From an uncultured Spirochaetaceae bacterium (GTDB taxonomy: Bacteria; Spirochaetota; Spirochaetia; Sphaerochaetales; Sphaerochaetaceae): 64,000 nucleotides of DNA. The stretch is from assembly GCA_944392935.1 (NCBI GenBank), contig CALXYI010000038.1:1-64000 (forward strand), read 5' to 3'. Below are positions 8,143 to 10,877 of the stretch, piece after piece; within the stretch, counting starts at the first letter, position 1; the number at the start of each line of letters is the position of its first letter. The notes under the pieces were generated by a model, which saw only the letters and a program-made list of their open reading frames with translations, made no database searches and was not told the DNA's origin. The position numbers and the translations under genes are program-made.

Positions 8143-8946
8143 TCAGTCTACGAGGACAACCTCACCATTGGGATAGCGCTCGGCCACATATGCCTGCACC
8201 GCCTCGCTCTTGAGCGCAGCAACCAGGGCCTGGATCTTCGGTGCGTTCTCATCTCCATCGCGCACTGCGATCACATTCACATACGGGCTGTCGGCACCTT
8301 CCACGAAAAGCCCGTCACGTGTTGCGATGAGGCCTGCCGGGATTGCGTAGTTGCCGTTGATGACAGCTGCATCGACATCGGGAAGCACGCGTGGAAGCGA
8401 AGCTGCCTCGATCTCGGAGAATGAGAGCTTCTTCGGGTTGTCTGCGATATCCGCAGGCACGGCCTCAAGCCCTGCACCATCGCTGAGGGTGATCAGGCCT
8501 GCACTCTGAAGCAGGAGGAGAGCCCTTCCCTCGTTCGTGGGATCGTTGGGGATCGCGATGGTGGCACCATCGGGGATCGCATCAAGCGATGAATGCTTGT
8601 CGCTGTATACGGCAAGAGGCTCGATATGGATGCCGCCAGCCGACACGAGATGGTATCCTCTCTCAGCATTCGCTGACTCAAGGTACGGGAGGTGCTGGTA
8701 GAAATTCGCATCAAGCTCACCTGATTCGAGAGCCTCGTTCGGCGTCACATAATCAGTGAATTCGACGATCTCGAGGGTGTAGCCCTCATCCGCGAGCTGA
8801 TCGACCACCTGCGAGAGCATGGCGGCATGCGGATCAGGTGTTGCACCGACCTTGATGACGTTCGGATCTGATTCCTGGGCACCGCTTGCGAATGCCGGAA
8901 CCGTGAGTGCGATGACTGCAAGAGCAACTGTGAGAATCTTCTTCAT
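8143..8946 (-). CDS. metQ: Methionine ABC transporter substrate-binding protein MetQ (NlpA family)
   Basis: A 267-residue periplasmic binding protein of the NlpA/MetQ family. The signal peptide ends near AFASGAQE and, unusually for this family, has no lipobox cysteine, so it may be released or otherwise anchored. Family stretches include VGATPDPHAAML, DANFYQHLPYL, IAIPNDPTNEGRALLLLQ and VINGNYA. It would deliver methionine (D or L, or a derivative) to MetN/MetI. It is separated from metI by 269 bp holding a terminator, its own promoter and a Met-rich leader ORF, so it is transcribed independently. Confidence 0.93.
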   Translation of the reverse strand: MKKILTVALAVIALTVPAFASGAQESDPNVIKVGATPDPHAAMLSQVVDQLADEGYTLEIVEFTDYVTPNEALESGELDANFYQHLPYLESANAERGYHLVSAGGIHIEPLAVYSDKHSSLDAIPDGATIAIPNDPTNEGRALLLLQSAGLITLSDGAGLEAVPADIADNPKKLSFSEIEAASLPRVLPDVDAAVINGNYAIPAGLIATRDGLFVEGADSPYVNVIAVRDGDENAPKIQALVAALKSEAVQAYVAERYPNGEVVLVD

Positions 8947-9126
8947 ATATTATCTCCAAGAATTACGGATATACCGTTCGATGCCATGTCCCCTTGGGAC
9001 CCTCTCTGCTGGAAATGATGATGTGGTGGAAAAATGAATACTATGCCCTGACGGGCATCATCATGGAGGACATCATGATCGATGTGAAAGTAAAGCTGTA
9101 CATCTTCGTCCTCCTTTATCTGAGAT
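8947..9126 (-). promoter_or_regulatory. metQ leader RNA with mutually exclusive pairings
   Basis: About 180 nt lie between the predicted start of transcription and metQ. Three complementary pairs are visible. The SD of the leader peptide, GGAGGAC, is complementary to GTCCTCC inside the leader ORF (9064-9070). The AUGAUGAUG run (9056-9064) is a perfect 9-bp match to CAUCAUCAU (9015-9023). ATGCCC/GGGCAT (9043-9058) forms a compact hairpin. A further small hairpin, GTCCC-AAG-GGGAC, lies near 8988-9000. The Met-codon segments take part in the pairings, which is the architecture of a translation-sensing attenuator. No uridine-rich terminator is visible, so the output may be translational or Rho-dependent. 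Confidence 0.55.
9041..9103 (-). CDS. Methionine-rich leader peptide of metQ
   Basis: A 20-codon ORF encoding MYSFTFTSIMMSSMMMPVRA, with six Met codons including MM and MMM runs. It has an excellent Shine-Dalgarno (AAAGGAGGAC, 4-5 nt from ATG) and begins about 23 nt after the predicted transcription start, 94 nt upstream of metQ. A run of codons for the transported amino acid in a short, well-initiated ORF is the hallmark of leader peptides such as trpL or hisL. I know of no described Met leader peptide for MetQ, so function is inferred from position and composition only. Confidence 0.65.
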   Translation of the reverse strand: MYSFTFTSIMMSSMMMPVRA

Positions 9127-9132
9127 GTCTAC

Positions 9133-9161
9133 ATTATGCATAAAGATGGAAGTTTATGCAA
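9133..9161 (-). promoter_or_regulatory. metQ promoter with TGCATAAA inverted repeat
   Basis: -35 TTGCAT (9156-9161), 17-bp spacer, -10 CATAAT (9133-9138). An 8-bp perfect inverted repeat TGCATAAA/TTTATGCA (9137-9144 and 9153-9160, 8-bp spacer) coincides with both elements, and a third TGCA follows at 9168. The left arm also lies in the 10-bp palindrome TTATGCATAA. The half-sites resemble those in the argF promoter, so an ArgR-like or Met-specific repressor could bind here. Confidence 0.6.
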
Positions 9162-9180: not shown

Positions 9181-9206
9181 AGGCACTCTTTTCATTGGGA
9201 GTGCCT
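9181..9206 (-). terminator. Rho-independent terminator after metI
   Basis: Perfect 8-bp stem AGGCACTC/GAGTGCCT with a 10-nt loop, followed on the minus strand by TTATTAT. It begins 9 nt past the metI stop and ends the gdpD-metN-metI transcript before the metQ promoter. Confidence 0.85.
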
Positions 9207-9214
9207 ATCTTCTT

Positions 9215-9877
9215 TCAGCGCTTGGACATAAGATGCGAGCTTATCCTGTCGCCTATGAACTGTATGAGCTCAACCATCACTATTATTATCACAACGGCGG
9301 CAACCATGTAGGATGGACGGAAGCGCTGGTACCCATAGCGTATGGCAAGGTCTCCCAGCCCCCCGCCTCCGATGGCTCCTGCCATCGCGGAGTAGCCTAT
9401 GAGGTTTATTATCGTGAGCGTCACGCCAGAGGCAAGAGACGGCAGCGCTTCGGGGATCAGGACCTTGGCAATGATCTGCCAGTTCGTGGATCCCATCGCT
9501 TTCGCAGCCTGCACGACCCCCGGATCGACTTCCTTCAGCGAAGACTCTATGACCCTGGCCACGAACGGAGCCGCAGCGATCGAAAGGGGGATCACCGTGG
9601 CCATCGTCCCGATGCTTGTGCCTATTATCAGGCGGGAGAGAGGCATCAGGACGATCATCAGGATCAGGAACGGGAATGACCTGAGGACGTTGACTATCCT
9701 CGAAAGCACGCTGCAGAACACCGGATGCGGGATTATGCCGCCGCTTTCCTCAGAACCAGTGACATGCAGCAGCACCCCTATAGGGAAACCAAGGAGCATC
9801 GAGAATATGGTGGAGAGGAATACCATGACGGCTGTCTGCCATGTAGCCTCAAGGACAAGATTCATCATAGTGGACAT
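9215..9877 (-). CDS. metI: Methionine ABC transporter permease MetI
   Basis: A 220-residue permease with five to six transmembrane helices. The EAA loop facing the ATPase reads VQAAKAMGSTNWQIIAKVLIPEALPSLASG, and the C-terminal MAGAIGGGGLGDLAIRYGYQRF is diagnostic of MetI. The ATG at 9877 is chosen because it follows GGAGGTGTGAA and lies 1 bp after the metN stop. It forms the transport channel of MetNIQ in the inner membrane. Confidence 0.94.
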   Translation of the reverse strand: MSTMMNLVLEATWQTAVMVFLSTIFSMLLGFPIGVLLHVTGSEESGGIIPHPVFCSVLSRIVNVLRSFPFLILMIVLMPLSRLIIGTSIGTMATVIPLSIAAAPFVARVIESSLKEVDPGVVQAAKAMGSTNWQIIAKVLIPEALPSLASGVTLTIINLIGYSAMAGAIGGGGLGDLAIRYGYQRFRPSYMVAAVVIIIVMVELIQFIGDRISSHLMSKR

Positions 9878-9878
9878 T

Positions 9879-10877
9879 TCACACCTCCTCCGCCTCGTCG
9901 ACATAGACGCCCTTGCTGCGCAGCATGGCAACGGCCTTGCCTGCTGCCTCTGCATCAGGGCCTATATCGGTGATCATGACACCGATCTCCTCTCCGTCCA
10001 CGTTCTGCACCCCAGCCGCACGGATGTTGAATACAGCGCCTGTGGATGATGAGACTGCGGAGATGATCGGCTCATCGGTCTTGGAGCCGCGGAAGCGGAG
10101 CGTGTAGTGGCCGCCTTCCTTCGACCACCTGACGATGGACTCCCTGACCGTAGCCAGCGATGAGAGGAAATCCTTCGTCACGGGATGGCGCGGGGAGGCG
10201 AAGATATCAGAGACCCTGCCCTCCTCCACGATCCTGCCGGAATCCAGCACCGCGACCCTGTCGCATGCATCACGGACAACCTCCATCTGATGCGTGATCA
10301 TCACGACGGTGAGGTTCATCTTCTTCTGTATCTCCTTGATCAGCGCAAGGATCGAGCGGGTGGTCTGTGGATCGAGGGCGCTGGTGGCCTCATCGCAGAA
10401 GAGTATCTCGGGATCGGTGGCGAGCGCACGCGCGATCGCGACACGCTGCTTCTGCCCGCCGGAGAGCGTGGATATAGGGGCGTCCCCCCTTCCCTGCAGG
10501 CCGACAAGCTCCAGAAGCTCCTCCGTACGCCTCCTTATATGCTCCTTATCCATATGGCATATCTCCATCGGATATGCGATATTCCCTGCCGCATTGCGCG
10601 ATGAGAAGAGGTTGAATGTCTGGAATATCATCCCAATATGCCGTCTTTCGGCTATCAGCTCGGATTTCGGGAGATTGTCCACCCTCTTATCATCATAGTA
10701 GACCTCCCCCTGATCAGGGACTTCCAGCATCGACACGAGGCGCACAAGCGTCGACTTGCCTGCCCCCGACTTGCCTATGATCCCATATACCGTGTTAGAA
10801 GGTATCGTCAGCGACACATCCTCCACGGCATGGAGCTGGCCATAGCTCCTTCTGAGATTCCTAAGTCTTATCTCCAT
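9879..10877 (-). CDS. metN: Methionine ABC transporter ATPase MetN
   Basis: A 332-residue ATPase. Walker A GKSGAGKST, signature LSGGQKQR, Walker B ILFCDEATSALD and a switch His (MITHQMEV) are intact. A C-terminal NIL domain (about 255-332) is present; in E. coli MetN this domain binds methionine and gives trans-inhibition of transport. It follows gdpD by 31 bp and is translationally close to metI. Confidence 0.95.
   Translation of the reverse strand: MEIRLRNLRRSYGQLHAVEDVSLTIPSNTVYGIIGKSGAGKSTLVRLVSMLEVPDQGEVYYDDKRVDNLPKSELIAERRHIGMIFQTFNLFSSRNAAGNIAYPMEICHMDKEHIRRRTEELLELVGLQGRGDAPISTLSGGQKQRVAIARALATDPEILFCDEATSALDPQTTRSILALIKEIQKKMNLTVVMITHQMEVVRDACDRVAVLDSGRIVEEGRVSDIFASPRHPVTKDFLSSLATVRESIVRWSKEGGHYTLRFRGSKTDEPIISAVSSSTGAVFNIRAAGVQNVDGEEIGVMITDIGPDAEAAGKAVAMLRSKGVYVDEAEEV

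Follow-up and report, generated by a model that had tools for sequence, protein, structure and literature searches.

In bacteria, control of methionine genes is known to proceed via MetJ, SAM riboswitches and T-boxes. To our knowledge, convincing attenuators which read Met codons are missing so far, perhaps because AUG also starts translation. S-box (SAM-I) riboswitches and Met T-boxes are RNA elements controlling genes of methionine transport and synthesis in other bacteria, but contain no ORF and differ in this respect from the leader described here. The attenuators of trp, his, leu, ilv, thr and phe comprise a short ORF with a strong Shine-Dalgarno (SD) sequence, a run of codons for the regulated amino acid near its end, a stop codon within the RNA structure and a terminator-like hairpin with a U-tract, followed by a gene for the same amino acid. 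All of these features recur in front of metQ in the spirochaetal DNA of 64,000 nucleotides analyzed here (the window). The metQ leader differs from the trp-type attenuators in the amino acid, methionine, in its Met codons, which form the rising arm of the putative terminator, in an anti-SD sequence within the ORF that closes the SD, and in its occurrence in Spirochaetota. The main departure is that no separate antiterminator was found.

According to the accessible part of a survey from 2010, leader-peptide attenuators were known only from Proteobacteria and Actinobacteria, to which a histidine leader from Firmicutes was added (PMC2965389). In the available portions of surveys covering Actinobacteria and bacteria in general, no attenuation is reported for methionine (PMC1262725, PMC2965389). 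A leader ORF in front of a methionine importer, metL upstream of metNIQ, has been proposed for Streptomyces lividans, based on one genome (PMC8079986). The statement in the original prediction that no such Met leader was known has to be qualified by metL, which was the only proposal of a Met leader for metQ found in the open-licence literature (subscription papers may be missed). The metL peptide MSTTSDRTPATEATTTPGARCMCRRMCAF contains two internal Met and three Cys residues; unlike the metQ leader, its ORF is leaderless, has no SD and no recognizable terminator (PMC8079986). Visual inspection of this peptide showed neither a shared run nor any sequence resemblance to the metQ leader. The upstream ORF of ilvB-II in Corynebacterium is likewise a leader ORF with a terminator, recently deduced from comparative analysis, but according to the accessible parts of the reports it concerns branched-chain amino acids and has a separate antiterminator (PMC10272879, PMC11109978). 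The upstream-ORF motif of fthC in Streptococcus has its stop codon in a stem and is linked to methionine supply; it differs in that the gene encodes an enzyme of one-carbon metabolism, sensing was proposed at initiation and no Met run is reported in the available part of the source (PMC11109978). A search of Rfam, with the S-box and T-box families among its models, gave no match above the gathering score at the metQ leader locus, the best weak matches being chance matches to unrelated families.

Locus and Leader ORF

The window belongs to the 1.8 Mb genome of a spirochaete; its named relatives among the collected genomes comprise bins of uncultured Spirochaetaceae and Spirochaetales as well as Candidatus Ornithospirochaeta avicola. 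On the minus strand metN and metI are followed by a likely terminator, a gap of 268 nt between metI and metQ which holds the leader ORF, and metQ itself (Table 1); the three genes represent a methionine ABC importer according to NCBIfam models. The promoter with its 17-nt spacer, the ORF of 20 codons with six Met and the strong SD (AAAGGAGGAC) were all present where the original prediction had placed them. Based on the promoter-like site, the transcript of the metQ unit is predicted to start at about position 9126. A stricter promoter scan of the window gave no call for TTGCAT-17-CATAAT. Among 65 cluster representatives, a -35/-10 pair with at least 8 of 12 consensus positions occurs in 53, with a 17-nt spacer in 37 of them, and the sequences upstream of the leader (promoter region) are conserved among relatives.

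Table 1. Features of the metQ leader and its surroundings; positions refer to the window.
Feature	Position	Strand	Remark
metQ, methionine-binding protein of the ABC importer	8143..8946	-	NCBIfam MetQ, E 3e-71
SD of metQ, GGAGA	8957-8953	-	–
Element E, CCACCACATCAT, C-rich and G-poor	9018..9029	-	overlaps CATCATCAT (9023-9015); similar CCACSACAT motifs in distant copies
3' strand of the lower stem, TATT (9040-9037), followed by U-rich CATTTTT	9030..9040	-	two-sided changes; U-tract
Leader ORF, MYSFTFTSIMMSSMMMPVRA plus stop, 20 codons, six Met including the start	9041..9103	-	conserved; covariance model R1 matches copies in 8 genera
Terminator-like hairpin: upper stem ATGCCC (9058-9053) and GGGCAT (9048-9043), 5' strand of the lower stem GATG (9062-9059)	9043..9062	-	95% pairing in the upper stem (65 sequences)
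3' strand of helix P1: anti-SD GTCCTCC within the ORF, spanning the Ser-Ser codons	9065..9071	-	covaries
5' strand of helix P1: leader SD GGAGGAC	9108..9114	-	pairs with 9071-9065; covaries
Promoter-like site of the metQ unit: -35 TTGCAT (9161-9156), 17-nt spacer, -10 CATAAT (9138-9133)	9133..9161	-	8/12 consensus
Inverted repeat AGGCACTC..GAGTGCCT, then TTTATTAT; likely terminator of metN-metI	9181..9206	-	given in + orientation by the repeat scan
metI, permease, upstream unit	9215..9889	-	NCBIfam MetI above cut-off; frame open further upstream to 9955
metN, ATPase, upstream unit	9879..10877	-	NCBIfam MetN best match, E 7e-98

Conservation and Distribution

The comparison drew on metQ upstream regions from the genus; only those with intact upstream sequence were counted, the window included. 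In all 46 there is an ORF of some 20 codons which ends with SSMMMPVRA or a close variant before the stop and lies 77-127 nt from metQ, so that no metQ-bearing relative within the genus had lost the ORF or its Met codons. The alignment, which had been suggested together with the original prediction, revealed conserved Met codons as well as compensatory pairs in helix P1 and in the hairpin. Upstream of a paralogous metQ of one genome (G035) the leader ORF is absent. Apart from the Met codons the N-terminal half of the peptide varies freely within the genus alignment, and the C-terminal PVRA is replaced by PERA, PFGA, PWRA, R or P. This variability, which extends to the residues encoded in the hairpin loop, speaks against a peptide that acts in itself, for example by binding metal, with RNA pairing being secondary. 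Met-rich peptides can bind copper, but the neighboring genes are methionine genes and not metal genes; this model was rejected because the residues at the hairpin and the N-terminus vary freely, and we consider it extremely improbable.

Beyond the genus, the pattern ATGNNNATGCCCNNNNGGGCAT was detected in 67 of the 139 genomes of the GTDB family and the reversed pattern in none. Among unselected metQ upstream regions from other genera of the family there were further variants, in which the hairpin differs. Covariance model R1, built from 65 diverse copies, matched 93 copies in 82 of the 139 family genomes, distributed over eight of 22 genera; in a class-wide search of 395 sampled genomes all matches fell within the same family. 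No such leader was found in metQ upstream regions outside the family (Treponema, Halanaerobium, Firmicutes and Eggerthella). Two further exact matches to ATGATGCCC-nnnn-GGGCAT in the window's own genome (contigs C32 and C35) and one match within the family (G033:C132, L147) were dropped, as they are not Met-rich leaders.

Both the ORF and its frame are established by the comparison. The ATG with the best SD, picked without regard to frame, shares the reading frame of the Met block in 64 of the 65 cluster representatives, and ATG accounts for 26.7% of the internal codons of the leader copies in this frame versus 0.6% and 1.5% in the other two, Met thus making up about 27% of the internal residues. 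Counted back from the hairpin, codon -7 is Met in 45, codon -6 in 37 and codon -5 in 39 of 63 sequences. Since codons -7 and -6 are often Met and yet have no part in any supported helix, Met itself appears to be selected, and the leader appears to be sequence of the coding type under selection for methionine. Cys is rather common, too, with 3.3% of the internal residues and an occurrence in 44 of 90 copies, often as Met-Cys-Met; base pairing may constrain these positions, or the sulfur amino acids may be sensed jointly.

Paired Elements and U-Tract

The whole region folds little better than shuffled sequence (z -1.37), and with the fold being unclear the comparison with relatives decides on the pairings. 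The predicted pairing of GGAGGAC with GTCCTCC, termed P1, was borne out: it ranked first among all window pairs in a scan of 57 representatives, and the native duplexes have a mean of -13.5 kcal/mol compared to -10.5 kcal/mol for permuted partners (z about -10, 65 representatives). Two-sided changes are seen across the leader copies, and pairs of relatives are GGAGAGCAU / AUGUUCUCC (L011), GAGGAAAGAC / GUCUUUCUUC (L114) and AGGAGGUAUGC / GCAUGUCUUCU (L117). A strongly covarying helix which closes the leader SD would also suit a leader that monitors translation or initiation in general (fMet-tRNA, ribosome loading) by means of a self-occluding SD, and not elongator Met-tRNA, and the fthC upstream ORF of Streptococcus has been suggested as an fMet-tRNA sensor in the accessible part of the report (PMC11109978). 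The internal Met codons, however, are more than 10-fold enriched over the other frames and are kept at positions without pairing duty, and we regard sensing at initiation as improbable.

A second pairing had been postulated as the actual switch, namely of the Met codons AUGAUGAUG with the downstream CAUCAUCAU, whereby a stalled ribosome would free the downstream strand. In the window's genome a perfect 9-nt complement is indeed present (ATGATGATG, 9064-9056, and CATCATCAT, 9023-9015, 32 nt apart), and a similar pairing appears in the minimum-energy fold. It does not covary, however, and with z +0.28 and p 0.62 in 65 representatives the helix is no better than permuted partners; the motif diverges in many relatives, and the fold of the region reaches a z of -1.4 only. 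We consider this switch very improbable. The idea that Met codons serve as a helix arm is nevertheless supported, the helix being a covarying terminator-like hairpin and not AUGAUGAUG:CAUCAUCAU.

This hairpin has the consensus GAUG-AUGCCC-nnnn-GGGCAU-RA-YAUY-U-tract and is represented in the window by ATGCCC-GTCA-GGGCAT at the end of the ORF (9058-9043), a stronger conserved hairpin that the original prediction does not list. Its rising arm consists of the last Met codons and the Pro codon of the leader ORF, and GATG of the lower stem is made of Met codons as well. The stop codon (UAA, UAG or UGA; TAG in the window) starts at the last U of the stem, while the loop and its encoded residues vary (VR, ER, FG, FW, WR, CR). 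In the paralogue leaders the stem reads AUGCGC/GCGCAU, i.e., CCC:GGG is exchanged for CGC:GCG, Pro for Arg, and the stop is located in the loop; as pairing is kept despite the Pro to Arg change, it is the hairpin that is conserved there and not the peptide end. Taken alone, the upper stem would make a poor terminator, since the U-tract begins about 6 nt later, and the covarying lower stem of 4 bp after a 2-nt bulge resolves this. In the lower stem GAUG pairs with YAUY across the bulge, which corresponds to the last two bases of the stop codon; it is paired in 78% and shows two-sided change in 20 cells compared to 6.4 +/- 2.0 after shuffling, a value reached in none of 500 shuffles. In genus g21 Cys takes the place of a Met (ATG to TGC), with a compensating change to GTAC in the downstream strand. 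Directly after the lower stem follows a U-rich tract with a mean of 5.1 U per 8 nt, compared to a background of 2.3, and almost no G; the tract is unclear in some paralogue leaders (G116, G081). Hairpin and U-tract are arranged as in an intrinsic terminator with a bulged stem of 10 bp, at which transcripts may end. An all-pair scan with permuted controls gave no covarying antiterminator helix that would exclude the hairpin, and the 5'-end CAUC may pair weakly with GAUG (p 0.01).

The main rival to intrinsic termination is Rho-dependent or translational control via element E: the same leader would respond to the same Met-tRNA signal, and E would load Rho or mask the metQ SD, as in tna- and cat-type leaders. 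Even distant paralogues have a motif like E (CCACSACAT) 10-20 nt behind the hairpin, the region from +5 to +30 is almost G-free, and a strong U-tract is missing in some copies. The downstream leader, however, is variable in length and sequence, whereas hairpin and U-tract are conserved, and no pairing of E or of the mid-leader with the metQ SD exceeds permuted controls, a comparison of low power as the SDs vary little. Neither E paired with the Met codons of the first block nor the anti-SD paired with the metQ SD exceeded permuted controls (65 representatives). Altogether we rate control via E as unlikely. No pairing partner turned up for the C-rich motif CCACSACATNNNTAT, a possible Rho or protein site which distant copies share at this distance of 10-20 nt from the hairpin.

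Genes Following the Leader

Behind leader copies lie metQ, a second gene of the metQ family, a metNIQ operon, metY and a peptide ABC transporter. The second gene of the MetQ/NlpA family is found behind a leader in six genomes; its product, about 32% identical and with the motif IGVPDDATNQARAIKLLETAGL, has a Met-rich leader of its own, and its substrate is probably methionine or a derivative. MetQ-like paralogues with leaders ending in MMMR before the stop occur in four genomes (G078, G080, G081, G116). Genome G082 carries a leader in front of a complete metN-metI-metQ operon, and in genome G131 the leader lies before metY, encoding O-acetylhomoserine sulfhydrylase (TIGR01326, E 1e-191). In G082 and G083 a leader precedes a peptide-binding ABC transporter of family 5. 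The similar leaders MRHSGFSMCMMSSMMPVRA and MRHSGFLMCLMPSMMPVRA (L243, L245) before this peptide-type transporter hint at the import of methionine-containing peptides. In G116 a leader is located before genes for a dehydrogenase and an aminotransferase, the matches of the latter including methionine aminotransferase models below the cut-off. On contig C37 of this genome two Met-rich leaders (L148, L202) lie back to back on opposite strands, facing a MetQ-like gene and the dehydrogenase and aminotransferase genes, respectively. The peptide transporter and the dehydrogenase/aminotransferase pair, for which a link to methionine is no more than possible, count against a methionine-specific reading.

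Of 25 leaderless metQ genes examined, 22 are situated 2-98 nt behind metI, and the three exceptions belong to one genus, g22. In leader-bearing loci for which metI was found, metI and metQ are 268-491 nt apart. These distances indicate that the leader accompanies an independently transcribed metQ, and a separate control point would not be needed for a metQ close behind metI. SAM (S-box) riboswitches above the cut-off were detected in 13 of 60 sampled relatives and not in the window's genome; leader and SAM riboswitch may share the control of methionine genes within the genus.

Proposed Mechanism

A methionine-specific leader-peptide attenuator at metQ is the best reading of the comparative data, and we hold it to be rather probable. 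The metQ transcript from its own promoter would begin with a short ORF whose Met codons lie partly right ahead of the rising arm of the terminator-like hairpin and partly within it. With plentiful Met-tRNA, or with no ribosome loaded, formation of the hairpin at the U-rich tract would end most transcripts; in the terminated short RNA P1 would close the leader SD with its own anti-SD, so that no translation takes place. P1 would close the SD before a ribosome is loaded or after its release. With scarce charged Met-tRNA, slow decoding of the Met codons would keep a ribosome on the rising arm and P1 would stay open; the hairpin would be blocked and RNA polymerase would continue into metQ. As the sensed codons lie within the rising arm, a ribosome delayed there would prevent the terminator.

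On the assumption that a ribosome shields some 12 nt past its A-site codon, stalling on any Met codon of the second block would mask the whole arm and stalling on the last Met of the first block would block part of the lower stem; a stall further upstream, e.g., at either of the two leading Met codons of block 1, would not hinder the terminator. Full masking would thus be achieved from the second block only, and the timing of ribosome and polymerase would matter. The opposite sign of the response is possible; it would depend on this timing, which lies beyond the sequence. The leader would represent the attenuator class in a variant form, with direct masking by the ribosome replacing the antiterminator.

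Discussion

The original observation is real and strongly conserved, and the comparison with relatives supports well that the Met-rich leader is placed for sensing charged tRNA-Met and for controlling metQ. Of the characteristics of an attenuator, the conserved ORF with its ribosome-binding site, the enrichment of Met codons, the methionine gene downstream and the hairpin with U-tract are present at metQ, and the alternative antiterminator helix is not. What appears to be new is methionine as the sensed amino acid, since this type of switch is known for tryptophan and others, but not convincingly for methionine. That the locus represents the first well-supported methionine-specific attenuator and the first leader-peptide attenuator in Spirochaetota, working without an antiterminator, with the sensed codons as terminator arm, a self-closing ribosome-binding site and a small regulon (metQ, second metQ, metNIQ, metY, possibly peptide uptake), has in our view about an even chance of being correct.

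The leader would place a leader-peptide attenuator with strong comparative support and a compact regulon in Spirochaetota. Its layout, in which the sensed codons form the terminator arm, an antiterminator is lacking and the SD closes itself, would allow a minimal attenuator design to be tested directly in a reporter some 150 nt long. The leader-bearing family consists of gut and environmental spirochaetes, in which methionine import genes and, in one genome, a gene of methionine synthesis lie behind the leader. In such unculturable spirochaetes the leader may serve as a marker for methionine-linked transporters.
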